A stretch of DNA of 46,289 nt. Origin: Candidatus Poribacteria bacterium. GTDB taxonomy: Bacteria; Poribacteria; WGA-4E; WGA-3G. The stretch spans positions 21,882 through 68,170 of the forward strand of contig PYJE01000068.1 of NCBI GenBank assembly GCA_003635305.1, in the 5' to 3' direction. The position numbers and the translations under genes were made by a program. Below are positions 3-25,228 of this stretch, in pieces. Below the pieces are notes generated by a model, which searched no databases, was not told the DNA's origin, and saw only the letters and a list, made by a program, of their open reading frames with translations. Position 1 is the first letter of the stretch. Each line of letters begins with the position of its first letter.

Positions 3-539
3 GTGCAACTTAAGTTAGGTCCCTCCTACGGAATCTACCGATTCAAAGCCTTCCCAGCTCCCTATCACGACTTCACCATCACCGTCAAGAACATTGGCAG
101 TGAACAAGCGGATTTCGGCATCACCCTCGGCAAGCGGTTTCCCGAAGTCGTTGATGGAGAGCGGGTGCCCTTTTTCTACGACTTTTTTCCCCATCGCATC
201 GCCGCGCGGCGTTACGGCGAAGGATGGAACGACACATTGCCGCCTGGGTTTCGTGAACCTCGGCACCCAAAAACCGTATGGAAGACTCGGGAACTCCAGG
301 GAATGGCGGTGCATTTCAATCAGGGACATTTTCAACTGTTCGCAGAAGGTGAATTACGCGCCGATTTCCACGACCCGGGCTTTGCCCCCATTGAAATTAT
401 CGGATTTGTGATTGTGGGAACCGAAAATGTTGTCGGCACCGCGTGGGCAGATGCATTCACCCTTTCCGGCCCCGCGCTTGAAGTTTCGCCTAAAGCAAAA
501 TTGGCGACAACCTGGGGGAAACTCAAAAAAGGAAAATGA
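3..539 (+). CDS. Secreted TTWG-tail family protein, 5'-partial
   Basis: Open from the left edge of the window, so the N-terminus and any signal peptide are missing; the GTG at position 3 is probably an internal codon. It aligns throughout with the two following genes: FPAPYHDFTI versus LPRPYHQFIV, FFPHRIAARR versus FFPHQIAATR, GHFQLFAEG versus GHFQLFADG, and a shared WADAFTLSGPALEVSP segment. The pattern of beta-rich strands with a terminal G..WADAFTISGP element resembles concanavalin A/LamG-like jelly-roll proteins, but I cannot name a family. It ends in AKLATTWGKLKKGK, the same tail found in the two paralogs and in the LamG protein at 42021-42776. Probably exported; function unknown. Confidence 0.7.
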   Translation: MQLKLGPSYGIYRFKAFPAPYHDFTITVKNIGSEQADFGITLGKRFPEVVDGERVPFFYDFFPHRIAARRYGEGWNDTLPPGFREPRHPKTVWKTRELQGMAVHFNQGHFQLFAEGELRADFHDPGFAPIEIIGFVIVGTENVVGTAWADAFTLSGPALEVSPKAKLATTWGKLKKGK

Positions 540-820
540 CAGCACTCGTCAATCTGCCTATGAAAACTACCCTCTCATCGGTAAGAGGGAGCTCCTCAGC
601 CGCCGCAATGGAGCGGATATGAAGAACATTGGCGGGACCTTGATGATGAAAACATCATCAGATACATATTATCAAGCGGGCAAACTAGGATCCGTACGGC
701 ATCGGCCAGACAATCCGGAAGCGGTACGATTGCATTCGCTTGAATTAAACCTCAACTCTGCGAGGGGAGGGGAATTCACTCCCCTCGCAGTCTCTCAGCA
801 CCGGTGGAGAATTGTGAAAA
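540..820. other. Intergenic region with a strong hairpin
   Basis: No convincing gene is present in these 281 bases. An open frame that runs through from 412 lacks an RBS and family resemblance. The only clear structure is the inverted repeat at 758-790 (12-bp stem, 9-nt loop), which lies just before the Shine-Dalgarno-like GGTGGAGA at 804-811 of the next gene. It belongs in style to the GC-rich GAGGGG palindromes seen elsewhere in the window. Confidence 0.5.
758..790. repeat. GC-rich inverted repeat (GCGAGGGG type)
   Basis: The arms CTGCGAGGGGAG (758-769) and CTCCCCTCGCAG (779-790) are perfectly complementary over 12 bp. There is no T-run, so this is not a classical terminator. Similar GGGCGAG palindromes lie at 23715-23742 and 39612-39640. 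Confidence 0.6.
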
Positions 821-1531
821 ATGGTTCATATAGCAACTATCTTTTTACTCCTTATATTGACTGCCGCTGTCAGTGTCTCTGCTGAAGCAGGTTGGTGGCG
901 GGATGACTTTCATACAAAAGCGTTAGAAAATTGGTGGATAGAACCCGAAAATTTCGTCCAAGAGTCCGTTTGGCGGGTGCAAGATGGATTTTTAACGGCG
1001 ACGATTCAGACAGAATGGGCCGTGAAATACGAACTCTTCGGATTCAGAGCCCTGCCACGTCCATATCATCAATTCATCGTTCAAGCAGAGAACCTCGGCG
1101 GTGAAGGCGCGAATATCGGCCTCGGACTCGCAAAAATCTTCCCTGACGCACCGGGAGCAAAGTGGTTTTTCTACCTCTTTTTCCCACATCAAATAGCCGC
1201 AACCCGTTTTGATGCAGACCATAAGAATGCCCCCTTTCTGGTTCGCGTTCCGCAGCATCCCGACACCTTCTGGGATACCTGGGAACTTGAGGAACTCGAA
1301 GTGCGTTTCACCGCAGGACACTTTCAACTGTTCGCCGATGGCACGCAGCGCGCAACATTCCAGGATGCCGATTTTTCGTTCATCGACATTATTGGCTTCG
1401 TGATAGAGGGAAACAACCACCGAAAAGGCAGGGTATGGGCAGATGCATTTACTATCTCCGGCCCCGCGCTTGAAGTTTCACCCACCGCCAAAATGACTAC
1501 CACCTGGGGATACCTCAAGAACCAACCCTAA
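821..1531 (+). CDS. Secreted TTWG-tail family protein (tandem copy 2)
   Basis: A 236-aa protein with a clear signal peptide: hydrophobic stretch HIATIFLLLILTAAVSVSA followed by EAGWWRDDF, so it is probably exported. The ATG at 821 has GGTGGAGA at 804-811. The mature part begins W.DDF...WW......VWRVQDGFLTA, typical of a LamG/concanavalin-like beta-sandwich, and ends with ADGTQRATFQD.DFSFIDIIGFV and WADAFTISGPAL. The last residues SPTAKMTTTWGYLKNQP carry the TTWG tail. It is about 95 percent identical at the DNA level to the next gene over 966-1440, which points to recent tandem duplication. No catalytic residues are recognisable. A sugar-binding or cell-surface role is only a guess. Confidence 0.8.
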   Translation: MVHIATIFLLLILTAAVSVSAEAGWWRDDFHTKALENWWIEPENFVQESVWRVQDGFLTATIQTEWAVKYELFGFRALPRPYHQFIVQAENLGGEGANIGLGLAKIFPDAPGAKWFFYLFFPHQIAATRFDADHKNAPFLVRVPQHPDTFWDTWELEELEVRFTAGHFQLFADGTQRATFQDADFSFIDIIGFVIEGNNHRKGRVWADAFTISGPALEVSPTAKMTTTWGYLKNQP

Positions 1532-1565: not shown

Positions 1566-2270
1566 ATGAAAAGCCGCATACACATCTTGATAGACATTGT
1601 GGTAATTTCTGTGGGTATAGTTTTTTTTACAGCTGCTTTCGCAGGCACCTGGCGGGATGACTTTAACGCAGGAGATGCAGAAAGTTGGTGGATAGCGGCC
1701 GAAGAGTCCGTTTGGCGCGTGCAAGATGGATTTTTAACGGCGACGATTCAGACAGAATGGGCTGTGAAATATGAACTCTTCGGCTTCAGAGCCCTGCCAC
1801 GCCCATATCACCAATTCACCGTTCAAGCAGAGAACCTCGGCGGTGAAGGCGCGAATATCGGACTGGGACTCGCAAAAATCTTCCCTGACGCACCAGGGGC
1901 AAAGTGGTTTTTCTACCTCTTTTTCCCACATCAAATAGCCGCAACTCGTTTCAACGGCGAAAACGGGAATGCCCCCTTTCTGGTTCGCGTTCCACAGCAT
2001 CCAGACACCTTCTGGGATACCTGGGAACTTGAGGAACTCGAAGTGCATTTCACCCCAGGACACTTTCAACTGTTCGCCGATGGCACGCAGCGCGCAGCAT
2101 TCCAGGATGTCGATTTTTCGTTCATTGATATTATTGGCTTCGTGATAGAGGGAAACAACCACCGAAAAGGCAGGGTATGGGCAGATGCATTTACTATCTC
2201 CGGTCCCGCGCTTGATGTCTCGTCCAAAACGAAATTGGCAACGACATGGGGAAAACTCAAGCGTCAATAA
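1566..2270 (+). CDS. Secreted TTWG-tail family protein (tandem copy 3)
   Basis: A 234-aa paralog of the preceding gene, 34 bases downstream. I chose the ATG at 1566 because GGAGG lies at 1550-1554; the upstream TTG at 1542 falls before that site. The signal peptide is MKSRIHILIDIVVISVGIVFFTAAFAG, followed by TWRDDFNAGDAESWW. Compared with copy 2 the first 40 residues have diverged and a short segment (ENFVQE) is missing, while the core is nearly identical. It ends SSKTKLATTWGKLKRQ. The same-strand, close spacing suggests co-transcription of the three paralogs. Function is unknown; the likely fold is concanavalin/LamG-like. Confidence 0.8.
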   Translation: MKSRIHILIDIVVISVGIVFFTAAFAGTWRDDFNAGDAESWWIAAEESVWRVQDGFLTATIQTEWAVKYELFGFRALPRPYHQFTVQAENLGGEGANIGLGLAKIFPDAPGAKWFFYLFFPHQIAATRFNGENGNAPFLVRVPQHPDTFWDTWELEELEVHFTPGHFQLFADGTQRAAFQDVDFSFIDIIGFVIEGNNHRKGRVWADAFTISGPALDVSSKTKLATTWGKLKRQ

Positions 2271-12541: not shown

Positions 12542-12653
12542 TTTACGTTATGCGATGCTTGCATGAATTAAGACAGAAACCGACAAGTTTTTTGTCACCA
12601 GAAATTGTTGTTTGTTTTCGGCCCGTTTAGAAACACGCTAAAAAATCACTACG

Positions 12654-12703
12654 CCTCTCTGGCAAATGTCTGTGCCCGCACCTCGCGCGCGCCAGACAGG
12701 AGA
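12654..12703 (+). promoter_or_regulatory. rpoB leader hairpin overlapping the ribosome binding site
   Basis: CCTCTCTGGC (12654-12663) pairs with GCCAGACAGG (12691-12700) with one mismatch. The 3' arm includes the first bases of the Shine-Dalgarno AGGAGA (12698-12703). This could limit rpoB translation and allow feedback control. It is a visual call and no folding was run. Confidence 0.4.
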
Positions 12704-12712
12704 AGAACCTAC

Positions 12713-15700
12713 GTGAAGAAACGCATATCTTTCGCCAAAACAGACGTTCGCACACCCCTACCGAATTTGATTGAGACGCAGCAGCGCGCTTACGATGCCT
12801 TTTTGCAGCGCGACACGTTTCCGCACAAGGACAGCGGCCTGGCGGCAGTCTTCAACGAAGTCTTCCCTATCGCTGACTTCAACGAAGTCTCGCGCCTTGA
12901 ATTCGTCCATTACCAACTCGGCGAACCGAAATATACCCTTGACGAATGCCTCGCCCGCGGGGTTACCTACCAGGTCTCCCTCACCGCGCGGCTCCGCCTC
13001 GTCGTCTGTGAGAAAAACGCAGAAGACGAAGAACCGCACGTCGTTGATATCCGCGAGTCCGAAGTCTATTTCGGCGAAGTACCGCTGATGACTGAAAACG
13101 CCAGCTTCATCATCAACGGCAGCGAACGCGTCATCGTTAACCAATTGCACCGCTCACCCGGTGTCATCTTCCTCAATAAAACGCTCCCAGGCGGACATCG
13201 CTCCCCCACGGCGCAAATCATTCCTTACCGCGGGGCATGGATAGAATTCGAGGCGGACTCTAAAGATACCCTTTCCGTCCGGTTAAACAAACGTCGCAAG
13301 ATACCCGCCACCGTCCTGCTCCGCGCACTCGGGTGGGAGACGGATGCCGACATCTTGAAACTGTTCGCCGAACCAACGCGCGTGATGCTCTCCGGGTGGC
13401 GCGTCACTGAAGTAGCACTACCCGAATGTCCAACCCAAATCGATGCACTCTTAACCGCGGCGGAACATCGAAAGTTGGATGCCGACTACCCCGGCGCGGT
13501 AGCTGAGCTTTTCTATGAAGTCGTCTCCGCGTCCGATGATGCAACGTGCCCTGTCGCCGTCGGCGACAGGCTCACGCCTAACGAGTGGGCAAGGCACCGC
13601 AAAACGTGGAAAGATACCACCTTTGCACGCATCTGGCGTATCGCCAAGCATTACCGCCCCGACTATCCTTACCCCATCGGCGACATCGTGGCCGATGCAA
13701 CCTATCAGAAGGCACGGAAGGATTACCCGGGGATTGAGATAGAACCGTGCTATCGCGTCACAGCTGTCACTGACAAAGGGTGTCCGCTGGAAGAAGGACA
13801 GATGCTGACATCCAAGGAGCGCACCCGCGCACGCCGGAAGTGGAGAGGATTCACGACAGAACGACTCCTGCGCGTCACGAAACTCCTCAATACCGGATGC
13901 CCCTTGAACGTCGGCCAGCACCTCACGCCTACCGAATACACCGAAATGCTCGGAAAGCATCCTGACGCTTTCAAGGCAGAACGGATTGAATCGACAGACA
14001 TCGCCGAAACTATCGGCAGCGTCTGCGCTGAACCTATCGCCGACCCGAGGACTGACGAACTGCTAGTGACAGCGAATACGCTACTCACCGAAACAGAAGT
14101 CGAACGGCTGAGGGGTGCCGGTGTGGAGATGCTCACGGTGTTGACACCCGAATCCGCCAAAGCTCTCCGTTTTTTACGCAATACCCTCGAACGCGACAAA
14201 GAATCGGACTACGAGGCCCGCATCCAGGCCACCGGACGGCAAAGCGAAACACCCATTCAAGATGTCGCCCTGCTCAATATCCACTCTGTCCTCAGACCGG
14301 GGGAACCGGTGAGTATTGAGGCGGCGCACCGGCAACTCGCTTGGCACTTCTTCGACGCGCACCGCTATGACTTGGGGACTGTGGGACGCTACAAAGTGAA
14401 CTCAAAACTGCGACACCTCTCCGTATACGGTGAGCCGCCCGATGAGAAACACCGAACGTTGCGCCCGGAGGACATCGCGGCGACACTCCGGCACCTGCTT
14501 GATGTCCATAACGATCCTTCGTTGATAGACGACTTGGACCATCTCAGTAACCGTCGTGTACGCGGTATCGGCGAATTATTGGAGAACCAGTTCCGCATCG
14601 GCCTATTCCAGATCCGGCGCGCCACGCGCGAACGCATCTCCTCCGCCGATATGAGCAACTGCATGCCGCCAATGCTGATTAACCCGAAGCCGCTCATGGT
14701 TTCACTCCGCGAGTTCTTCGGTTCAAACCAACTCTCGCAGTTCATGCAGCAGGTAAATCCGCTCGATGAATTGACGCACAAGCGGCGTATCTCTGCCATC
14801 GGCCCCGGCGGACTCTCGCGCGATAGAGCCACCGCCGCCGTTCGCGATGTGCATCACACACACTACGGACGCGTCTGTCCCTTGGAGACACCGGAAGGCC
14901 CTTCTATTGGCCTCCTCGTATCGCTGGCGTGTTATGCGCGTATCAATCCTTACGGGTTCATTGAGACTCCTTATCACAGAGTGGTGCCCGGCAAGTCGAT
15001 GGCTGATATGGAAATTGAATACCTCACCGCCGATAAGGAAGACAAGGCCCGCATCGCCGCCAAAACGATACCGCGCGACGCGAAAAGGGGAGAAACGCCT
15101 GACACGGGCATCCAGCTGCCCGCCCGAAAAGGCGAAGATGTGCTTGCCTTACCCCTGTCCGAGGTAGACTACGTCGGCATCTCGCCATCACAGATTGTCG
15201 GTGTTTCCGCAGCACTCGTGCCTTTTTTAGAACATGAAGACGCGAACCGCGCCCTCATGGGCGCGAACCATCAACGACAAGCAGTGCCGCTCATCAAGCC
15301 CGAAGCACCACTCGTCGGCACCGGCATGGAAGCACGCGTCGCCCGGGACTCAGGGGCACTGTGCATCGCCAAACGCAGCGGCACCGTCGAAAGCGTCTCC
15401 GCCGCGGACATCATCATCCATACCGATGAACCCCTGCACGCAGACATCGGCGAACAACACAAGAGTGAGATGGGCTACGACCGGTATGAACTCCACACTT
15501 TCAAGCGGAGCAACAGCGGCACCTGCATCCATCAGCGGCCCATCGTCTCCGTCGGCGACACAGTGGAAGCAGGCGACATCATCGCCGACGGCACTTCTAC
15601 CGATGAAGGCGAACTCGCGCTCGGCAGGAACGTCCTGTGCGCCTATATGCCGTGGGGCGGACACAACTATGAGGACTCCATACTCATCAGCGAAAGCCTT

Positions 15701-17260
15701 GTCCAAGACGACACTTTCAGTTCCATTCATATCGAGGAATTCGAGGTGGAAGCCCGCGAAACGAAAATGGGACCGGAGGAAATTACGCGCGATATTCCCG
15801 ATGCAAGCCAACAGCGACTCTCACAACTGGACGAAGAAGGAATCATCCGTGTCGGAAGCCTTGTCAGCGCAGGCAGCATCCTCGTCGGTAAGATTTCACC
15901 CAAAGGCGAAAGTGAATACGGACCGGAGGAGAAACTCCTGCACGTTATCTTCGGTGAAAAGGTGCGCGAAGTCCGAGACGCATCCACATACGTCAAACCC
16001 GGCATTGAAGGCATCGTGATTGATGTCAAAGTCTTCTCACGAAAACAGGAACCAAGCCGGCACTCGCTGCAAAGCCTCGTTGACGCAGACCAGCTCCGTT
16101 ACGATGCCAAGAAGAAGGCCATCGAGGAGAAGTTCCACGAACACCTCCTGGCCATCCGCCGCCGCCGAGACGAAGAAATTCGGAACGCGCTCATCGGATG
16201 CGAATTGGCACAGCCACTCTTCAGAGGTATCGACACCGAAGCACCCCTTTCGCGCACAAGCAATGCCGAAGAACTGGACGAGTTGGACCATATCGGGGAA
16301 CTGCTGGCAGAAAGCGGCGACATCGTGACGCACGAACTCCTGCACACACCCGGCCTTGTGCTCAACGAGATTCACGTCACCGCCTCAAACGTCATGGCAT
16401 ACATCCAACGCGTTCAGGAAATCGCCGAGGAGCGCATCGCCGCCTATACCGAAGAAAAATCAAGCCAGCTCGAACAGATGGAACTCGGGGACGAACTCAA
16501 ATCCGGCGTGCTTAAACTGGTGAAAGTCTATATCGCGACGACGCGCCACATCTCCATCGGCGATAAAATGGCAGGCCGCTACGGCAACAAAGGGGTGGTA
16601 GCAGAAATTTTGCCCAAAGAGGATATGCCCTATCTCCCCGATGGAACACCGGTGGATATCGTGCTGAACCCCCTCGGCGTGCCATCACGGATGAACGTCG
16701 GGCAAATCCTTGAAATTCACCTCGGCTGGGCATGCCACGCACTGGGCATCCATGTTGAATCGCCTGTCTTTGACGGCGCAACCGAAAAGGAAATCTTCAC
16801 GATGCTCGACAAAACCGGCTTGCCGGAACGCAGCAAGAAAACCGGGAAAAGCATCCTTTACGACGGCAGAACCGGAGAAGCGTTCGGACAGGAAGTCACC
16901 GTGGGATATGTCTACTTCCTCAAACTGAACCATCTCGTCGCCGACAAGATGCACGCCCGTTCTACCGGGCCCTACTCGCTTGTTACGCAGCAGCCGTTGG
17001 GCGGCAAGGCGCAACATGGCGGACAGCGGCTCGGCGAAATGGAGGTGTGGGCATTAGAGGCATACGGTGCCGCGCATACCTTACAAGAAATGCTCACGCT
17101 CAAATCCGACGATTTCATGGGCAGAGCCAAAATTTATGAGTCGATGGTGAAAGGGCTCAACCCCGAATCCCCCGGCACACCGGAGTCGTTCAACGTTCTC
17201 GTGCGCGAATTGCAGGGCCTCGGCCTCAGCGTTTCCTTGAATCCGCCTGAAGAAAAATAG
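12713..17260 (+). CDS. rpoB: RNA polymerase beta subunit with lobe repeat insertion
   Basis: About 1515 aa, against 1342 in E. coli. The start is GTG 12713 (VKKRISFAKTDVRTPLPNLIETQ), with AGGAGA at 12698-12703; the 36 upstream in-frame codons have no similarity. Conserved blocks: INGSERVIVNQLHRSPGV, GSNQLSQFMQQVNPLDELTHKRR (rifampicin region), HYGRVCPLETPEGPSIGL, NYEDSILISE, GDKMAGRYGNKGVV, VPSRMNVGQILE and GGKAQHGGQRLGEMEVWALEAYGA. After RKIPATVLLRALGW, five tandem repeats of about 40 residues (230-424) are inserted in the lobe, near the place of E. coli SI1. Position 516 (E. coli numbering) of the rifampicin pocket is Gln instead of Asp. It forms the catalytic core with RpoC, 168 bases downstream. 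Confidence 0.97.
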   Translation: MKKRISFAKTDVRTPLPNLIETQQRAYDAFLQRDTFPHKDSGLAAVFNEVFPIADFNEVSRLEFVHYQLGEPKYTLDECLARGVTYQVSLTARLRLVVCEKNAEDEEPHVVDIRESEVYFGEVPLMTENASFIINGSERVIVNQLHRSPGVIFLNKTLPGGHRSPTAQIIPYRGAWIEFEADSKDTLSVRLNKRRKIPATVLLRALGWETDADILKLFAEPTRVMLSGWRVTEVALPECPTQIDALLTAAEHRKLDADYPGAVAELFYEVVSASDDATCPVAVGDRLTPNEWARHRKTWKDTTFARIWRIAKHYRPDYPYPIGDIVADATYQKARKDYPGIEIEPCYRVTAVTDKGCPLEEGQMLTSKERTRARRKWRGFTTERLLRVTKLLNTGCPLNVGQHLTPTEYTEMLGKHPDAFKAERIESTDIAETIGSVCAEPIADPRTDELLVTANTLLTETEVERLRGAGVEMLTVLTPESAKALRFLRNTLERDKESDYEARIQATGRQSETPIQDVALLNIHSVLRPGEPVSIEAAHRQLAWHFFDAHRYDLGTVGRYKVNSKLRHLSVYGEPPDEKHRTLRPEDIAATLRHLLDVHNDPSLIDDLDHLSNRRVRGIGELLENQFRIGLFQIRRATRERISSADMSNCMPPMLINPKPLMVSLREFFGSNQLSQFMQQVNPLDELTHKRRISAIGPGGLSRDRATAAVRDVHHTHYGRVCPLETPEGPSIGLLVSLACYARINPYGFIETPYHRVVPGKSMADMEIEYLTADKEDKARIAAKTIPRDAKRGETPDTGIQLPARKGEDVLALPLSEVDYVGISPSQIVGVSAALVPFLEHEDANRALMGANHQRQAVPLIKPEAPLVGTGMEARVARDSGALCIAKRSGTVESVSAADIIIHTDEPLHADIGEQHKSEMGYDRYELHTFKRSNSGTCIHQRPIVSVGDTVEAGDIIADGTSTDEGELALGRNVLCAYMPWGGHNYEDSILISESLVQDDTFSSIHIEEFEVEARETKMGPEEITRDIPDASQQRLSQLDEEGIIRVGSLVSAGSILVGKISPKGESEYGPEEKLLHVIFGEKVREVRDASTYVKPGIEGIVIDVKVFSRKQEPSRHSLQSLVDADQLRYDAKKKAIEEKFHEHLLAIRRRRDEEIRNALIGCELAQPLFRGIDTEAPLSRTSNAEELDELDHIGELLAESGDIVTHELLHTPGLVLNEIHVTASNVMAYIQRVQEIAEERIAAYTEEKSSQLEQMELGDELKSGVLKLVKVYIATTRHISIGDKMAGRYGNKGVVAEILPKEDMPYLPDGTPVDIVLNPLGVPSRMNVGQILEIHLGWACHALGIHVESPVFDGATEKEIFTMLDKTGLPERSKKTGKSILYDGRTGEAFGQEVTVGYVYFLKLNHLVADKMHARSTGPYSLVTQQPLGGKAQHGGQRLGEMEVWALEAYGAAHTLQEMLTLKSDDFMGRAKIYESMVKGLNPESPGTPESFNVLVRELQGLGLSVSLNPPEEK
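13400..13984 (+). repeat. RpoB lobe array: five ~40-residue repeats
   Basis: Residues 230-424 of RpoB divide into five units starting RVTEVALPECP, YEVVSASDDATCP, WRIAKHYRPDYPYPIG, YRVTAVTDKGCPLEEG and LRVTKLLNTGCPLNVG. Each continues with a [LM]T..E....R...[YW].GF-like second half. The same motif makes up the RpoC array at 20636-22744. The DNA copies are strongly diverged, so the array is old. Confidence 0.85.
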
Positions 17261-17428: not shown

Positions 17429-20400
17429 ATGGCAACCCCATTTGACAGTATCTCCCTCAAAATCGCTTCGCCGGACGAAATCAAAGCGTTGGCGAAGCGC
17501 ACCTGCTGCAAACGCAGAAGCAGCACCGTCAACCCCGGTGAACCCTTCTCCTGCCCAGAAATGCACACCTGCAACTGCGGCGAAGTGAAGAAGGCAGAGA
17601 CGATTAACTACCGCTCCTTCCGGCCCGAACTCGAAGGCCTCTTCTGTGAGGCAATTTTCGGGCCTTCCAAGGACTGGGAGTGTAACTGCGGAAAATATAA
17701 GCGGATTAAGCACAAAGGCGTTATCTGCGACCGGTGCGGCGTGGAAGTCACACGCCAGCACGTCCGCAGGGAACGGATGGGCTACATCCAACTCGCGTCC
17801 CCTGTCTCGCATATCTGGTTCTTCAAGGGGGCCCCATCGCGCATCGGAGCCTTCTGTGACTTCTCCGCACGGCAGATTGAGAACATTCTCTACTTTGACG
17901 CGTTCCTGGTGACTGAAGCGGACGAGGAACTTCAAGCACAAGGTATCCTCAAGCCCAACCAACTCATCAGCGAGGCAGAATTCGATACCTACAAAGTCCA
18001 ATACCGAGGCCGATTTAAGGCAGGTGCCGGCGGCGAAATACTTGCCAAACACCTCGCGAGCTTGGACCTCGAGGCAGAATGCGAGCAACTCGCTAAGGAA
18101 CTAGAGGAAACGCGCAGCCATCAGAAAAAGGTGAAACTCGCCAAGCAGCTCCGCATGAGGGAAGACTTTCTGAGGTCTGGACAACGTCCCGAATGGATGA
18201 TCATCGATGTGCTTCCCGTAATTCCCCCGGATTTGCGGCCCCTCGTCACCTTAGATGGCGGACGATTCGCCACCAGCGATCTGAACGATTTGTATCGGCG
18301 GCTCATCCATCGAAACAACCGCCTAGCCAAACTCATCCAGATGCGCTCGCCCGAAGTCATCTTGCGCAACGAAAAACGGATGCTGCAAGAAGCCGTTGAC
18401 GCATTCTTTGATAACGGCCGACACGGCAGAAGCGTAACAGGACCCGGGAATCGCGAACTCAAATCGCTCTCGCACGTCCTCAAAGGGAAAGTCGGACGCT
18501 TCCGACAGAATCTGCTCGGCAAACGGGTCGACTACTCCGGCCGCAGCGTCATCGTCGTCGGACCTGAACTAGCACTACACCAATGCGGCATCCCGAAACA
18601 GATGGCAGTGGAGTTGTTCAAGCCATTTATTATCGAACGGCTGCAAGCCTATGGCTACTCCAGCACCATCAAGCGCGCCAAGTCTTATGTCGAGAATATC
18701 GATTCTGGTAGCCCAGTGTGGGACGTGCTCGAAGAAGTCATCGAAGAACACCCAGTGTTGCTCAACCGGCCACCGACACTGCACCGGCTCGGCATTCAAG
18801 CATTCATGCCGGTCTTGGTGGAAGGAAAATCTATCCGAATCCCACCACTTGTCTGCAAAGCGTTCAACGCCGATTTTGATGGAGACCAGATGGCAGTGCA
18901 TGTGCCGTTAACCGCCGAAGCTCAGGCAGAAGCGAAACTGCTGATGCTCAGCAGCCATAACATCTTGAAGCCTTCGCACGGCGGACCGATTGCCGTCCCC
19001 GAACTGGATATGGTGCTCGGACCGAGTTACCTTACCAAGACGCTACCAGAACACGATGCGGACGCGCAACTGCTTCACAAGGTCTATACCCATCAAAACA
19101 GCGATACCTCTCTCTTTGATGAGATTCGCAGGAAACCGTGGTATCACCGCCGCTACGCGCATCCGGAAGAAGTCATCGCCGCGCACGGTGCAGGGCAACT
19201 CAAACTACACGACAGCGTCCAGTTGTTTTTCCCGGAAAATGGCAGGCAGCGCGAACCAATCCTCACCACCGTTGGCCGAGTGATTTTTAACGAGGTCCTC
19301 CCAGCCGAATTGGACTGGGAGGACGAGCACTCCGGACAGCAACTCCCGTTTTTCAACGGCGAAGCAGGGGGGAGGCAGCTCTCTGAAATCGTTGAAGACT
19401 GTTTCAACACTCCCGACCTCGGCACGCGGGCGACTGTAGAACTGCTGCAGCGACTTCAAAAACTCGCGTTCGAGTATGCAACGCAAAGCGGGATTTCGCC
19501 CAGCATTAATGATTACATCAAACCGCCGCAGCGGCAGGAACTGTTGGAAAAGACAGAGGAAACTATTGCCGAACTCATCGCCGCATCCGCCGCAGGTGCC
19601 GATACCGAAGAACTGGAGAACGAGCAAATCCACCTATGGTTCCAAGCACTGCGAGAGATGGAAGGCCTCATGTTTGCTAGACTCCCAGAATTGGAAACCC
19701 GCCTCGTTGACAGGGACGAACATGTCAAAGGGTTCAGTCCGGTGCATATCATGGCAGATAGCGGCGCACGGGCCCGGAAAAATCCGTTCATGCAAATCAG
19801 TGCCGTCCTCGGGCTGAAAGCGAAGCAGAGCGGTGAAATTCTGCTGCCGCCGATTACCACCTCCTATCGCGACGGATTGGACGTAATCGACTACTTCAAC
19901 TCCACCTACGGCTCCCGAAAAGGATTGGTGGATACGGCGATGAAGACAGCGGCATCGGGTTACTTGACGCGGAAACTCGTTGATGTCGCGCAAGACGTGC
20001 GCGTCACTGAAACGGATTGCGGCACCCTCCACGGCATCAAGAAATTTGCCACTGAAGGAGGAGAACTCGCTTTTAAAATCCGCGGACGCACCGCGACAGA
20101 GGATATCCTACATCCCAATACCGGTGAAGTCCTCGTCAAAGCCGATGAACTCATCTCAGCCGAAGCAGCGGCACTGCTTGAAAAGAGTAAGGTAAAAATT
20201 GTCACCGTCCGTTCGATGCTCACCTGCGAGACCGAGGAAGGTGTCTGCGCCAAATGCTACGGACACGATTTGACGACGAACAGGCTTGTCAGTGTCGGTG
20301 AAGCTGTTGGCATTATCGCCGCGCAATCCATCGGGGAACCCGGTACGCAACTCACGATGCGGACGTTCCACACCGGTGGTGCGGTTGAGGAAGTCTCCGA

Positions 20401-23400
20401 TGCACGCCAGCGTAAAATCCTAGCAAAAACGAGTGGCACTGTGAGGTTCCGCGATTTCCATCCCGGCATCACTGTCCGCCAAGAAGGCGCTCTCTGGATA
20501 TCCACAGGGCCCGGCACTTCTCCAATCGGCACAACTTCCTGGGCCGATAATCAGGCTGCTCTGAGGCGGGATCCAATAAACACGGAATCCGCTGAAAAGA
20601 AAGAATTCGGCAGCCGGGCCAATCTGGACGCTCCCGCCTACAAGGTCACGCGCGTCATTCACGCCGATTGCAAATTACAAAAAGGCGACTTGCTGAGCGA
20701 GAAACAGTTCTCTGAAAACGCGCAGCGTTACAAAGGCTTTGAGACAGTCCCATGGCAGCATCGCGTCACCACCGTTCACGATGATGCCTGTCCCTTGAAA
20801 GAGGGAGACCGGCTTTCTGCCGCGCAGTTGCATCAAGCCAGAAGGGCATACGGCTTCACGCGCTTTGCAACCGAGAAGCGCGAGATAGAACACGTCCGCC
20901 TTTCTACTGTGAACGTTCACCCCGGCGATTTGCTCACCGAAGAAGAAATCGCGCAGCGCAAAGCAGAGATTCGGAACAAATTTGATGGCGAATGGTGTTA
21001 CCGCATCCCAAAAACCGGCGAAATTTTCAAGTCGGCTCAGGAATTGTTGCCCTTGGGCATCCCTGTGGAGCCCCTTGAAGATATTGCGGATACAGCAATG
21101 CCAGGAGACACGTCTGCTGAAATGGCGGAAGCCCTGACTTCTGCGGATACATCGCTAGCGGGACGCACGTCTTTTGAACGGGTTTACCGCATCACCGCGC
21201 GGACACATCGGGATTTCCCTTATGCTGTCGGGGATATCGTGACCGCGGAGGAGATTGCGCCGTGGTTCACGCCTTTTGAGGAGGCAAAGAACCCCGTCTA
21301 TGTCATTGATGCAGACGCACCCTTGCATGCAGGCGAGACGTTGACACGCTACCAATACGAGGAAGTGTGTCGCGATTATCAGCCGTTTGAATCCGAAAGA
21401 GCGTCGGAAGTGTTGCACCACGTTACGGCAGTGCATCATCCCAGCTGCCCACTCAAGCCGGGTGAAGATTTAACCACAGCGGACAAGGATGCGATGCTCG
21501 CTCGCTGGATGGGTTTTGAAGCGCAGAAACTGCGGCACCGGGTTACGCACATCTATCATCCGGATTTTCCATACAAACCGGGCTATTTGATGAGCGATGC
21601 AGAGGCCAAAAAGTGGGCAAGCGAATTCCCCGGCATTGAAGTCCGGCATTCCGGCGTGTTTAGAACAACCCCTATCAATCGCATCACCGCCGTTCATTTC
21701 CCAGACAGCCCCTTGCAGAAGGGTGAACTGATGACGCGCAGCGAGGCATCGACATACCGCAAGACGTTCAAAGGGTTGGATGTCGAATCCTTCTACGAGG
21801 TTACTGAAGGACACTACTATCGGGCAACCGAAGGCAAGCCAGGCTTCACTGCAGAAGCGTTAACAGGGCCCGCTTTTACCGGGAAGGGTTCCAAGAACGT
21901 CTGGCGCGTTACCGAAGTGTTCCATCCCGCGTGCAAACTTGAGGTTGGACAGGATATTTCCAACGCCGCTTACAAGAAAGCGCAAAAGGACTTTCCAAGC
22001 GTCAAGCCGGGCGATATCCTAACGCAGGCGGAATTGGAAACGTGGCACCCCTTAGCCGCTGAGCAGGTCCAGCAACTCACCGAAGCGGAGTATGAGGCAC
22101 GACGCAAATGGGAGGCGAAAAACAAAACGCGGGGTAAAACGGATCTGAAAATCCAAGAGAAGGTCACACCCCAACACCGCGTGCTGGATGTCCATCACCC
22201 CCAACTCGCCATTGAAATCGGCGAAGAACTGGCGGATAAGGACTACAAGAAGCTCAAGCAAAAATACAGAGGGTTTGACGTTGAAACCCTCCATGGTGTC
22301 ATCCTAGATGAACCAGAGCTGGAGGAGCCCGACATCCCAGAAAGTGAGCTCGCTCAAGCGAAGCCGGACTCCACTGTGGTAGAGCACTATAAGCACGTCG
22401 TCAACAATCTAGAACTTCCTGTAGCGCAGTGGGAAAAGCCGCGCCTCGAGAAATTCTGGCGCGTTAAGGCTGTTCTTCCCAATCTAGAGTGTGAGTTTTC
22501 GGTAGGACAGAATCTTTCTGAAACCGAATATCAGGAGGCCTGCAAGAAGTATCAGGTCCACCTCGAAAAACCGAAGAGGCGTTTTCCCATTGATAAGGCA
22601 GAAATCTTTACAGCGGATGAATACCGCGCCCGCTGGAAGTATACCGTCACGGCTGTCCATCATCCGAATTGTCCGTATGAGGTAGGGACAGAATTATCCG
22701 AATCGGAATACCAAAGCGCGCTCAAGCATTACCCCGGCTTTGATAGGGACGATCCGGCACTGCAGATGAACATTGAGGTAGAGACAGCCGATGGCCGTCG
22801 GGTGCCGCATCAGATCAAGGCAGATTACTCCTTCTCCATCAAGGAGGGCGATACCGTCAAAGAGGAAGAAACCCTCGCTGAACTCCACGAGAAGACAGCG
22901 AACAGGGATATCGTTGCAGGTATCCCTCGCGTGACAGATCTTTTTGAGGCGCGCCAGCCTAAACGCGAAGACGCAGCGGAAATCGCGGAAATCGAAGGAT
23001 ACATTGAATCGGCAGGATCCAAATCAGGTGTTCCGACATACCGCATCGTTCACGAGGGGCACGAAAGCCGCCTCTACGCCATTCCGGACGAAAAACGGCG
23101 CGTCACCGAAGGCGACTTGGTAGAAGCAGGACAGCCGCTCACGGATGGATACCTCAACCCGCACGATATCCTCAAAATCGGGCGCGTCTTCATTGAAGAT
23201 GTCCCAATTGAAGGCGCAGAGGCCATTTGGACATACCTCATTGAGGAAATCCAAAAGGTTTACGGCGCACGCGCCATCAACGACAAGCACCTCGAAGCCA
23301 TCGTCCGGCAAATGATGAGGAAGGTGCGAGTGCTGAAACCCGGCGATACGCAGTTCCCCCATAACAGTGAGGTGACGCGACAGAAATTCGCTGAGGTGAA

Positions 23401-23698
23401 CGCGAAGGTTATTGACAGCGGCGGTGAACCTGCCACCGGCGAACCGATTCTGCAAGGCATCAGCCGTGCATCGCTCAGCACAGAAAGTTTCATCTCTGCC
23501 GCCTCGTTCCAGCAGACGACGAAGGTGCTGACAGATGCCGCTGTCAAAGGGCAGACAGACAAACTCTCCGGGCTGAAGGAAAACGTCATCCTCGGTCGCC
23601 TCATCCCTGCAGGAAGTGGACTTCCGGATTTACAGCAACTGGAAATCACGGAGGTTGACACTGACGAAGAGATGGAGGCACCGGAACCCGCCGAGTAA
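17429..23698 (+). CDS. rpoC: RNA polymerase beta' subunit with giant trigger-loop insertion
   Basis: 2089 aa, against 1407 in E. coli. ATG 17429 is preceded by AGGAG at 17414-17418. Landmarks: zinc ribbon Cys85, 87, 100, 103 (ECNCGKYKR...CDRCGVE); catalytic NADFDGD at 480-486; second zinc site CETEEGVCAKCYGHDL; bridge-helix/trigger-loop start GEPGTQLTMRTFHTGG (Met977); and trigger-loop end GIPRVTDLFEARQPK (from 1831). Between these two trigger-loop halves lie about 840 residues, in the position of the 188-residue E. coli SI3. About 700 of them are tandem repeats of the type found in RpoB. A further Cys-rich insertion occupies residues 23-50. Both catalytic centres look intact. Confidence 0.97.
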   Translation: MATPFDSISLKIASPDEIKALAKRTCCKRRSSTVNPGEPFSCPEMHTCNCGEVKKAETINYRSFRPELEGLFCEAIFGPSKDWECNCGKYKRIKHKGVICDRCGVEVTRQHVRRERMGYIQLASPVSHIWFFKGAPSRIGAFCDFSARQIENILYFDAFLVTEADEELQAQGILKPNQLISEAEFDTYKVQYRGRFKAGAGGEILAKHLASLDLEAECEQLAKELEETRSHQKKVKLAKQLRMREDFLRSGQRPEWMIIDVLPVIPPDLRPLVTLDGGRFATSDLNDLYRRLIHRNNRLAKLIQMRSPEVILRNEKRMLQEAVDAFFDNGRHGRSVTGPGNRELKSLSHVLKGKVGRFRQNLLGKRVDYSGRSVIVVGPELALHQCGIPKQMAVELFKPFIIERLQAYGYSSTIKRAKSYVENIDSGSPVWDVLEEVIEEHPVLLNRPPTLHRLGIQAFMPVLVEGKSIRIPPLVCKAFNADFDGDQMAVHVPLTAEAQAEAKLLMLSSHNILKPSHGGPIAVPELDMVLGPSYLTKTLPEHDADAQLLHKVYTHQNSDTSLFDEIRRKPWYHRRYAHPEEVIAAHGAGQLKLHDSVQLFFPENGRQREPILTTVGRVIFNEVLPAELDWEDEHSGQQLPFFNGEAGGRQLSEIVEDCFNTPDLGTRATVELLQRLQKLAFEYATQSGISPSINDYIKPPQRQELLEKTEETIAELIAASAAGADTEELENEQIHLWFQALREMEGLMFARLPELETRLVDRDEHVKGFSPVHIMADSGARARKNPFMQISAVLGLKAKQSGEILLPPITTSYRDGLDVIDYFNSTYGSRKGLVDTAMKTAASGYLTRKLVDVAQDVRVTETDCGTLHGIKKFATEGGELAFKIRGRTATEDILHPNTGEVLVKADELISAEAAALLEKSKVKIVTVRSMLTCETEEGVCAKCYGHDLTTNRLVSVGEAVGIIAAQSIGEPGTQLTMRTFHTGGAVEEVSDARQRKILAKTSGTVRFRDFHPGITVRQEGALWISTGPGTSPIGTTSWADNQAALRRDPINTESAEKKEFGSRANLDAPAYKVTRVIHADCKLQKGDLLSEKQFSENAQRYKGFETVPWQHRVTTVHDDACPLKEGDRLSAAQLHQARRAYGFTRFATEKREIEHVRLSTVNVHPGDLLTEEEIAQRKAEIRNKFDGEWCYRIPKTGEIFKSAQELLPLGIPVEPLEDIADTAMPGDTSAEMAEALTSADTSLAGRTSFERVYRITARTHRDFPYAVGDIVTAEEIAPWFTPFEEAKNPVYVIDADAPLHAGETLTRYQYEEVCRDYQPFESERASEVLHHVTAVHHPSCPLKPGEDLTTADKDAMLARWMGFEAQKLRHRVTHIYHPDFPYKPGYLMSDAEAKKWASEFPGIEVRHSGVFRTTPINRITAVHFPDSPLQKGELMTRSEASTYRKTFKGLDVESFYEVTEGHYYRATEGKPGFTAEALTGPAFTGKGSKNVWRVTEVFHPACKLEVGQDISNAAYKKAQKDFPSVKPGDILTQAELETWHPLAAEQVQQLTEAEYEARRKWEAKNKTRGKTDLKIQEKVTPQHRVLDVHHPQLAIEIGEELADKDYKKLKQKYRGFDVETLHGVILDEPELEEPDIPESELAQAKPDSTVVEHYKHVVNNLELPVAQWEKPRLEKFWRVKAVLPNLECEFSVGQNLSETEYQEACKKYQVHLEKPKRRFPIDKAEIFTADEYRARWKYTVTAVHHPNCPYEVGTELSESEYQSALKHYPGFDRDDPALQMNIEVETADGRRVPHQIKADYSFSIKEGDTVKEEETLAELHEKTANRDIVAGIPRVTDLFEARQPKREDAAEIAEIEGYIESAGSKSGVPTYRIVHEGHESRLYAIPDEKRRVTEGDLVEAGQPLTDGYLNPHDILKIGRVFIEDVPIEGAEAIWTYLIEEIQKVYGARAINDKHLEAIVRQMMRKVRVLKPGDTQFPHNSEVTRQKFAEVNAKVIDSGGEPATGEPILQGISRASLSTESFISAASFQQTTKVLTDAAVKGQTDKLSGLKENVILGRLIPAGSGLPDLQQLEITEVDTDEEMEAPEPAE
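17495..17578 (+). other. Cys-rich insertion near the RpoC N-terminus
   Basis: Residues 23-50 (KRTCCKRRSST...CPEMHTCNC) lie between DEIKALA and GEVKKAETINYR, which are adjacent in E. coli RpoC apart from a few residues. The segment holds Cys26, 27, 42, 48, 50 and His46, enough for an additional zinc site ahead of the canonical zinc ribbon (85-103). No metal binding is shown; this is inference. Confidence 0.6.
20636..22744 (+). repeat. RpoC trigger-loop array of ~40-residue repeats
   Basis: Residues 1070-1772. Clear units begin YKVTRVIHADCKLQKG, HRVTTVHDDACPLKEG, YRITARTHRDFPYAVG, YVIDADAPLHAG, HHVTAVHHPSCPLKPG, HRVTHIYHPDFPYKPG, NRITAVHFPDSPLQKG, WRVTEVFHPACKLEVG, HRVLDVHHPQLAIEIG, WRVKAVLPNLECEFSVG and YTVTAVHHPNCPYEVG. 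Most then have a hydrophobic-[ST]..E....RK.Y.GF second half. Degenerate units and acidic linkers lie between them. Repeat period is 38-45 residues where regular. Confidence 0.88.
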
Positions 23699-23764: not shown

Positions 23765-25228
23765 ATGCTCAAACTTCCCGAACTCAACAGTTTACATTAC
23801 GGCGATTGCCTAGAAGTCATGCAACAATGGCCCGATGAAACCATAGACCTCGGCTACTTCGATCCTCCTTTCAACAGCAACGCCAAATATCACCAACTCT
23901 ATGATACAAAGGACGACAACCGCGGCACACGCGACGCACAACTGCAAGCATTTGACGACGCATGGAGATGGAATACCACCGCCGCCGAACGCGTCGCAAA
24001 TCTGCTCGATGCACCCGCACATCCGGCGCATCAGGTGATAGAAGCGTTCGCTAAATGGCCCGGAGAAGGCGGCATGCTCGCCTATCTCAGCTACATGGCA
24101 GAACGCATCGCGGGCCTACACCGGCTGCTCAAACCCACAGGCAGCGTCTACCTCCACTGCGATGCAACCGCCGCGCATCCCCTCAAACTCCTCATGGACT
24201 GTATCTTCGGACCGGAAAACTTTCGCCGTGAGATTGTGTGGCAGATGAAATCGCGTTCCGGTTTCAAAAGCCGAGCCGCGAATTGGATCCGCGACCACGA
24301 CACTATCCTCTATTACGCCAAATCAGACCGGGCGACGTTCAACAAGCAGTTTGAACCCTATTCCGAGGAATATGTGGCACGAAGTTTCACGCAAAAGGAT
24401 GCGGACGGACGGCGGTATCGTCAACGCGGGAATAAACGCTACTACGAAGATGAAGGCGGCATCCCCTACGGCGACGTATGGGACGACATCCACTCCTTTC
24501 AGACAGCGACGCGGAGCCAAGAGTATCTTGGGTATCCTACCCAAAAACCGTTGAAACTTCTGGAACGCATCATTCAGGCATCCTCTAATGAAGGCGACAT
24601 CGTGCTGGACCCGTTTTGTGGCTGTGGGACAACAGTTGCCGCAGCGGATAAACTGAATCGAAAGTGGCTCGGCATCGATATCTCACTGCACGCGTTGGAA
24701 GTCATCAAGCTAAACCGCTTTCCGGGGCGCGCTATTCCCACGAGCGGCATTCCTGCAGACTTCGCCGCAGCAGCGCAGCTAGCCAAGCAAAATCCACGAC
24801 ACTTCGAAGTCTGGGCACTGAATTGCGCCTCGCAAGGACTCGCACCAAACGATGTCCAAACCGGTGATGGCGGCATCGATGGAAGAGGCCACACGCTCCT
24901 GCAGCCCGATGAAAGCAACTCCAAACTGGTGCTTGCGCAGGTGAAAGGTGGGAAATTCCAATTGAGCCAACTCCGTGACTTCTTGTGGACGCTGGAACGG
25001 GAGAAAGCGGCGATGGGAGTGTTTATCACGCTGAACCCTGTCACCTCGCGGAACGCACAAGCGGAACTGCTGCGACTCGGCACCGTCACCGTCGGCACGG
25101 AAACATATCCGCGCGTGCAAACCTGGTCACTCCAGGAACATTTCAAGGGACAGCGGCTACGGATGCCAGATATGAAGAACCCTTATACCGGCAAACCGCT
25201 CCAACCCTCGCTGCAATTGATGTTGTAG
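23765..25228 (+). CDS. DNA methyltransferase fused to Mrr-like nuclease domain
   Basis: A 487-aa protein; ATG 23765 with GGAGG at 23754-23758. Motif IV DPPF (33-36, in GYFDPPFNSNAK) precedes motif I DPFCGCGTT (282-290), the order of beta-class N4-cytosine/N6-adenine methyltransferases. YPTQKPLKLLERII before motif I is typical. After the methylase fold, residues about 347-440 (FEVWALNCASQG, TGDGGIDG, LVLAQVKGG) carry the D372...Q392-V-K394 pattern of Mrr/PD-(D/E)xK restriction endonucleases. The protein therefore probably both modifies and cleaves DNA, a single-chain restriction-modification enzyme. There is no separate specificity or nuclease gene nearby. It lies 66 bases after rpoC with no sign of mobile flanks. 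Confidence 0.88.
   Translation: MLKLPELNSLHYGDCLEVMQQWPDETIDLGYFDPPFNSNAKYHQLYDTKDDNRGTRDAQLQAFDDAWRWNTTAAERVANLLDAPAHPAHQVIEAFAKWPGEGGMLAYLSYMAERIAGLHRLLKPTGSVYLHCDATAAHPLKLLMDCIFGPENFRREIVWQMKSRSGFKSRAANWIRDHDTILYYAKSDRATFNKQFEPYSEEYVARSFTQKDADGRRYRQRGNKRYYEDEGGIPYGDVWDDIHSFQTATRSQEYLGYPTQKPLKLLERIIQASSNEGDIVLDPFCGCGTTVAAADKLNRKWLGIDISLHALEVIKLNRFPGRAIPTSGIPADFAAAAQLAKQNPRHFEVWALNCASQGLAPNDVQTGDGGIDGRGHTLLQPDESNSKLVLAQVKGGKFQLSQLRDFLWTLEREKAAMGVFITLNPVTSRNAQAELLRLGTVTVGTETYPRVQTWSLQEHFKGQRLRMPDMKNPYTGKPLQPSLQLML

Follow-up and report, generated by a model that had tools for sequence, protein, structure and literature searches.

A giant trigger-loop insert in Poribacteria RNA polymerase, apparently built from copies of the clamp element β′-bD2

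The genes for the two large subunits of RNA polymerase (RNAP), rpoB and, just downstream, rpoC, lie in a 46,289-nt stretch of DNA (here called the window) from a Candidatus Poribacteria bacterium (assembly GCA_003635305.1, contig PYJE01000068.1, positions 21,882–68,170 of the forward strand). The β′ subunit encoded by this rpoC carries a giant insert in its trigger loop: the two halves of the loop, TMRTFHTGG (from residue 976) and GIPRVTDLFEAR (from residue 1831), are separated by 846 residues, and the insert between them occupies the SI3 site. An initial annotation, made from the sequence alone, had described a giant repeat insert at this site, and our analysis confirms it. The annotation placed the repeats at 20636–22744, essentially the span over which we find units, and its estimate of at least ten units of about 40 residues also holds: a family profile detects nine clear units (17–59 bits), two partial units (21 and 7.5 bits) and three weak remnants, with a unit length of 34–40 residues. 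The picture of an array that fills the insert fared less well, being right about the repeat and wrong about the insert as a whole, because the array is nested in a retained SI3 domain. Unit 1 is the most conserved across the family, with invariant columns, and unit 12 is the closest to the family consensus; unit 3, degenerate in the window, is complete in an alignment of relatives.

The same units occur in the β subunit, where five of them, absent from the initial annotation, precede a retained BEAN domain. A profile built from these five RpoB units alone recovers seven units of the RpoC insert at ≥8 bits, and 1,000 shuffles of that insert yielded no unit at this level (best shuffle, 2.5 bits); thus, the array is not a product of chance. 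In genome G000, all 16 unit matches outside the native clamp domain described below fall in rpoB or rpoC (16/16). A genome-wide repeat family is therefore ruled out, the units being confined to rpoB and rpoC in G000 and the relatives searched, except for one protein in G083.

How the array is embedded became clear when the flanks were aligned with SI3 of Escherichia coli and with ordinary SI3s from six further families of the phylum. The first SI3 SBHM domain is missing from the window RpoC, and the second is present but split, with KILAKTSGTVRFRDF...ITV preceding the array and NIEVETADGRRVPHQIKADYSFSIKEGDTVKEEETLAELHEK following it. Because of this loss and this split, the order along the chain is trigger loop, half SBHM, repeat array, half SBHM, trigger loop. 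For the C-terminal half of the SBHM, Foldseek pointed only weakly to cytochrome f and to the cyanobacterial SI3-tail 8h02.

The initial annotation had left open whether the units belong to the SBHM or β–β′ module types or are new. Leaving this open was justified; the profile check showed them to be neither SBHM nor BBM2 (BEAN). By sequence profile, the units are instead copied from a clamp element of the enzyme itself, β′-bD2, the 'small left claw' (sLC, CATH 3.30.60.280), and we denote them sLC units. In hhalign comparisons, they scored 97.8% (E = 7.6e-13) against the bD2 of array-less relatives, versus 8.4% for the bD6 HABAS, 2.2% for bD7, 0.6% for BEAN (bD5), 0.2% for SI3 and 0.1% for two control stretches. 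A profile of the trigger-loop units, run on array-less RpoC, hit one site per protein, the native bD2 (residues ~157–220), the best match being VLEVSDPNCPLKVKQLLTEEEYNEHLSQFP (E = 1.6e-11); the sole other match in the array-less RpoB/RpoC set was to BEAN in one RpoB (E = 0.02), and reversed decoys of the set gave none. Among 177,635 Protein Data Bank (PDB) sequences, the top four matches of the units were RNAP β′ chains at bD2, with E-values of 0.02–0.08 that are modest but fall at the same position each time. Of the array-less families, the nearest, f2 and f3, have the bD2 most like the units (24–39 bits, median 36–39); that of the more distant families f4, f5, f7 and f10 is less similar (1.5–18 bits, medians 10–15). 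Because the unit profile, hhalign, the PDB ranking and the f2/f3 likeness all point to bD2, the unit probably derives from the polymerase's clamp domain.

The window RpoC also keeps its native bD2, which is diverged and carries a short insertion; it was identified by a unit-profile match at residues 174–194 and by phmmer alignment to PDB β′ chains. In one relative (L061, G058), the native bD2 is enlarged in place by an extra unit (RpoC residues 150–290). AlphaFold2 (AF2) predicts the array as β-loop-β-α-β beads linked by long shared strands, the better units reaching a pLDDT of ~80–90, and this predicted unit fold is consistent with bD2. Foldseek matches of the predicted units were mostly to RNAP β′, the best local one being 7ckq_D (probability 0.82, 2.0 Å over 41 columns, E > 1); with no significant E-value, Foldseek was dropped as proof of the fold.

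Table 1. Positions of RNAP features in the window and of nuclease-bearing inserts in relatives.
Feature	Sequence	Position	Strand	Remarks
rpoB, RNAP β subunit	window	12605..17260	+	start codon uncertain
five sLC units in RpoB, betai4/SI1 site	window	13400..13954	+	immediately before retained BEAN domain
rpoC, RNAP β′ subunit, 2089 aa	window	17429..23698	+	single open frame
native β′-bD2 (small left claw) of clamp, aa 156–200	window	17894..18028	+	
TMRTFHTGG, first trigger-loop half, aa 976–984	window	20354..20380	+	
N-terminal flank	window	20381..20617	+	first strands of retained second SI3 SBHM (KILAKTSGTVRFRDFHPGITV) and linker
sLC unit array (11 clear, about 3 degenerate), aa 1072–1772	window	20642..22744	+	family profile; AF2 model
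unit 1	window	20642..20743	+	43.6 bits
unit 2	window	20762..20857	+	35.0 bits
unit 3, degenerate	window	20912..20956	+	5.6 bits
unit 4, partial	window	21188..21253	+	7.5 bits
unit 5	window	21302..21391	+	17.6 bits
unit 6	window	21419..21520	+	44.1 bits
unit 7	window	21539..21640	+	37.6 bits
unit 8	window	21680..21781	+	35.8 bits
unit 9	window	21905..21997	+	36.2 bits
weak remnants after unit 9	window	22001–22048 and 22070–22105	+	7.4 and 2.9 bits
unit 10	window	22178..22279	+	34.9 bits
unit 11, partial	window	22487..22552	+	20.6 bits
unit 12	window	22643..22744	+	58.5 bits
C-terminal half of retained SI3 SBHM (MNIEVETADGRRVPHQIKADYSFSIKEGDTVKEEETLAELHEK), aa 1773–1830	window	22745..22918	+	
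GIPRVTDLFEARQPK, second trigger-loop half, aa 1831–1845	window	22919..22963	+	
HNH	G028 (L034) RpoC	aa ~1170–1290		inside array unit 2
MTES_1575	G053 (L056) RpoC	aa ~1130–1310		inside array unit 2
HNH	G039 (L042) RpoB	aa ~570–1042		
MTES_1575	G040 (L043) RpoC	aa ~887–1307		in BEAN of bD5
MTES_1575	G050 (L053) RpoC	aa ~1844–2241		in bD7
HsdR-like	G072 (L072) RpoB	aa ~178–684		

We surveyed 85 genomes of the phylum Poribacteria (G000–G084), all metagenome assemblies. The giant insert is present in 52 of the 52 genomes of the window's family in which the locus is assembled, and its length, measured directly in 48 of them, ranges from 617 to 926 residues; in the remaining four, the end motif was missed and the spacing of the flanks gives the same size. 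The family itself is, we infer, the sponge-associated Entoporibacteria. Other Poribacteria families have an SI3 of 183–262 residues, and two RpoC proteins of another family (L096 and L097, from G025 and G026) have a trigger-loop SI3 of 373–392 residues with no detectable sLC units. Within the window's family, the number of units varies from 9 to 15, as the initial annotation had suggested checking, and genus g3 keeps an insert of 617–618 residues in 11 measured species. An assembly artefact is unlikely, the insert being found in the single-contig genomes G080, G082, G083 and G084 and one of the HNH-bearing inserts described below in a two-contig genome. A contig scan, which detects close relatives only, returned 31 loci, all from Poribacteria, and with the patterns used no relative was found among 2.9 million viral contigs, which speaks against a viral origin.

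Units 1, 2, 5, 6, 8 and 10 of the window are clearly closer to the correspondingly placed unit of other genera than to any of their neighbours within the array (this comparison uses its own numbering, with degenerate units skipped). Because units match by position across genera, the array is older than the genera, and sequence comparison indicates vertical inheritance throughout the family. A recent homogenised amplification is thus ruled out for most units; units 3, 7 and 9 of the same numbering are ambiguous. The array is under purifying selection: across nine pairs its dN/dS is 0.04–0.17, the comparison of the window with its sister species gives 0.31, and the RNAP core has 0.04–0.11; most pairs show faster sequence change in the array than in the core.

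Factors that act through the secondary channel were sought with three Pfam models, and their absence here means the lack of a match to these. GreA/GreB were found in 0 of the 85 genomes above the cut-off with both Gre models, with one sub-threshold match, and DksA/TraR was found nowhere in the whole order except in one contaminated bin. Gre is also undetected in the Poribacteria families with a small, ordinary SI3; because of this, its absence most simply preceded growth of the insert and appears to be older than the giant insert. The idea that the array caused the loss of Gre is unsupported, Gre being undetected in all families. Cyanobacteria also lack Gre factors, and a large SI3 has been proposed to have possibly sped their loss (PMC7026648); the order suggested in Poribacteria, with Gre missing first, is the opposite.

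Six relatives carry private, in-frame inserts in RpoB or RpoC that contain nuclease domains of three types (Table 1), the MTES_1575 matches in G040, G050 and G053 (E = 1e-20 to 1e-24) lying above the cut-off. The loop of unit 2 that holds the HNH domain in G028 holds an unrelated nuclease, MTES_1575, in G053, a species of another genus. sLC units lie inside or around the nuclease inserts, and in several of these short YKVT-x-VP repeats precede the nuclease. The RpoC proteins of G039 and G040 are 96–99% identical, yet their private cassettes sit in different subunits, each site being empty in the other species, which argues for recent insertion. The recent inserts have intact catalytic motifs by motif reading alone (HNH motifs, ECK/EFK). 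In genus g4, RpoB (L050, L060, L067, L075, L080 and others; ~1770 residues) has a larger insert near the C-terminal third with an HsdR-like domain and sLC units; the catalytic ExK is lost from this insert in the five species aligned (xMHK, xLYA, xLCA) and kept, as ECK/EFK, in the recent G072 insert and in a G083 protein. The latter, an 851-residue open reading frame (ORF) on the minus strand (L120, C1 ~807000–809000), is the only non-RNAP protein with sLC units in the genomes searched. Its short repeats are followed by a pair of HsdR-like nuclease domains and a pair of sLC units, and beyond these lie a membrane helix and repeats of TPR type. In PADLOC/NCBIfam searches, the inserted HNH domains resemble the type II Zorya protein ZorE (E = 1e-18 and 1e-24) and the MTES_1575 domains resemble PDC-S37 (E = 1e-19 to 1e-27), Hhe and ProA; the HNH domains also have matches among phage HNH families and a weak one to a model of homing endonucleases. 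Pfam and NCBIfam searches of the relatives' inserts matched neither intein nor Hint models, and with no splicing domain an intein is ruled out. The window's own polymerase contains no recognisable nuclease, and a nuclease remnant in its array was rejected, none being found with Pfam or PADLOC.

Other features were noted around and beyond these genes. The upstream neighbours of rpoBC are minus-strand DUF4416 and peptidase S58 genes and EF-G, and an N6/N4 DNA methylase gene (23765–25225) lies immediately 3′ of rpoC; given these neighbours, rpoBC lies away from its usual ribosomal protein genes. In another relative (L046, G043), a 435-residue helical, coiled-coil-like insert without sLC units occupies a different part of β′ (RpoC residues ~715–1163). 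Extra β′-like ORFs (1076 and 2246 residues) stand beside a normal rpoC in G082 (C1:6380972–6381793) and G002 (C261:31537–32124).

Taken as a whole, we favour, at a probability of about 0.6, an account in which the insert is an overgrown SI3 made of bD2 copies, working on the outside of the enzyme as a brace or a docking platform, in the manner of cyanobacterial Si3, and tolerated in the absence of Gre and DksA. In the ancestor of the family, tandem copies of β′-bD2 would have entered a loop of the second SI3 SBHM, and the first SBHM would have been lost. The copies would now form a chain of β-loop-β-α-β beads sharing strands, and the sLC module would also have been copied to the SI1 site of RpoB and to additional sites in some species. 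The retained SBHM would tie the chain to the trigger loop, so that the chain could lie outside the active site, over the secondary channel and the lobe face, and move as the loop folds. By analogy with cyanobacterial Si3, it might act as a brace or as a docking surface for sigma, DNA or another factor, with the chemistry unchanged. Such an insert would be tolerated because the secondary-channel factors GreA/B and DksA were already missing. The initial annotation had expected the array to affect elongation or pausing; this is unsupported so far, and the nearest precedent, the cyanobacterial Si3, swings by 24° with trigger-loop folding and barely changes catalysis (PMC10802570).

Several points weigh against this account. 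The units did not recover bD7, the second sLC, even though bD7 is said to be homologous to bD2 and both are called sLC (PMC11515920); this may count for little against a bD2 origin, as structure is what groups the two native sLCs, whose sequences are perhaps too diverged for hhalign. The pTM values of the AF2 models (0.38 and 0.46) are too low to place the units relative to each other, and Foldseek searches with the predicted units gave no significant match. The purifying selection on the array could reflect only avoidance of misfolding. The binding partners proposed for the chain are pure conjecture, and its placement on the enzyme is drawn from the cyanobacterial analogy.

Other explanations differ from ours in what the units are, in why the array grew and in where it came from. 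That the units are a diverged SI3-type SBHM (HABAS) or BBM2 (BEAN) repeat might be expected from their trigger-loop location and from the SBHM flanks of the insert, and is nevertheless highly improbable, given the hhalign scores (0.2–8.4% for HABAS and 0.6% for BEAN against 97.8% for bD2) and a predicted β-loop-β-α-β fold in place of a sandwich barrel. A stronger contender, although we think it unlikely, is constructive neutral growth, in which the SI3 tip became tolerant after the loss of Gre and DksA, duplications arose by unequal recombination and the array merely folds harmlessly. The lack of detectable Gre throughout the phylum and of DksA throughout the order, which extends to families without the expansion, fits such a course, as do the faster evolution of the array than of the core in most pairs, the spread of unit number from 9 to 15 and the in-place enlargement of bD2 in G058. 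It is harder to reconcile with a dN/dS well under 1, the near-constant insert length in genus g3, the strong conservation of unit 1 and the retention of the array in all assembled members of the family.

The nuclease-bearing inserts raise the further question of origin. RNAP lineage-specific insertions might, as we propose only tentatively from these sequences, arise from nuclease-bearing, non-splicing, in-frame elements that enter sLC or BEAN loops in rpoB and rpoC, some staying active nucleases and others decaying to sLC arrays like that of the window. A doubtful, more specific version is homing-like: a non-splicing cassette of YKVT-x-VPDG repeats, nuclease and sLC units would enter rpoB/rpoC loops in frame, spread by cutting empty alleles, lose its nuclease and leave behind a lasting domain made of the units. 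The sister species G039 and G040, with their cassettes in different subunits at reciprocally empty sites, are what such an element would produce; so are the six inserts with three nuclease types, the convergence of unrelated nucleases on a single unit 2 loop in G028 and G053, from different genera, the loss of ExK in the g4 insert beside its retention in G072 and G083, the cassette in the unrelated G083 protein and the lack of an intein domain. Against this, the arrays of most species are without a nuclease, the junctions bear no target-site signature, and these genomes also encode related nucleases as free-standing ORFs, so that those in the inserts could be captured domains and not drivers; cutting of empty alleles is only putative, and intactness of the active sites is read from motifs only. 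Much less probable is that anti-phage nucleases were fused into RNAP for delivery to transcribed foreign DNA, with the sLC chain as their holder. The matches to ZorE, PDC-S37 and Hhe models would suit this role, but the domains are widespread outside defence (phage HNH families, the weak homing endonuclease match), occur in a minority of species at differing sites and are missing from the window's polymerase, for whose insert PADLOC returned no match.

The preferred account, an overgrown SI3 of bD2 copies, and the nuclease domains within inserts of some relatives together suggest how polymerase insertions grow and spread, and the insert shows a trigger loop that tolerates very large unrelated cargo. 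The mechanism of RNAP domain insertion has been called unclear in a 2024 survey (PMC11515920); a nuclease-element origin, if true, would supply it, and the private nuclease inserts of close relatives offer a concrete, testable route by which such insertions might arise. Poribacteria also provide a case, independent of cyanobacteria, of a giant SI3 together with absent Gre, and the order of the two events bears on the proposal made for cyanobacteria (PMC7026648).

Comparison with known systems places the insert among, and apart from, several kinds of RNAP insertion. The cyanobacterial Si3, a trigger-loop insert of 645 residues with eight SBHMs (PMC10802570, PMC10120043), forms an arch with sigma and stabilises promoter complexes (PMC10120043). 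The Poribacteria insert resembles it and the chloroplast Si3 in being a giant trigger-loop array of a multiplied polymerase module in a lineage without Gre (PMC7026648); unlike it, the units are bD2/sLC and not SBHM, the length reaches 926 residues (846 in the window), β′ is unsplit, the module is also present in β, and the absence of Gre appears earlier than growth. The Gracilicutes SI3 (type 4 β′ with two HABAS domains, as in E. coli) occupies the same site, and its second HABAS is kept here at both ends of the array, whereas the first is lost and the array is nested in the second. In-frame, sporadic and nuclease-bearing, with one class decayed where the insert is older, some inserts of the relatives recall inteins and homing endonuclease elements, from which they differ in lacking a Hint domain, in apparently being retained in the protein and in a mobility that is putative. 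The betai4/SI1 site of β is known to hold one to six tandem BBM2 (BEAN) repeats (PMC2939025), and the window RpoB likewise has tandem repeats at this insertion site, beside a retained BEAN, although its units are sLC. The unit profile matches bD2 of the β′-bD2/bD7 sLC domains (Alvarez-Carreno 2024, PMC11515920), for which sLC inserts are reported as rare variants in bD2, bD4, bD5 and bD7, not in the trigger loop. In ordinary RNAP, bD2 is a single-copy domain of the clamp; here, the trigger loop holds 12 copies and β another 5.
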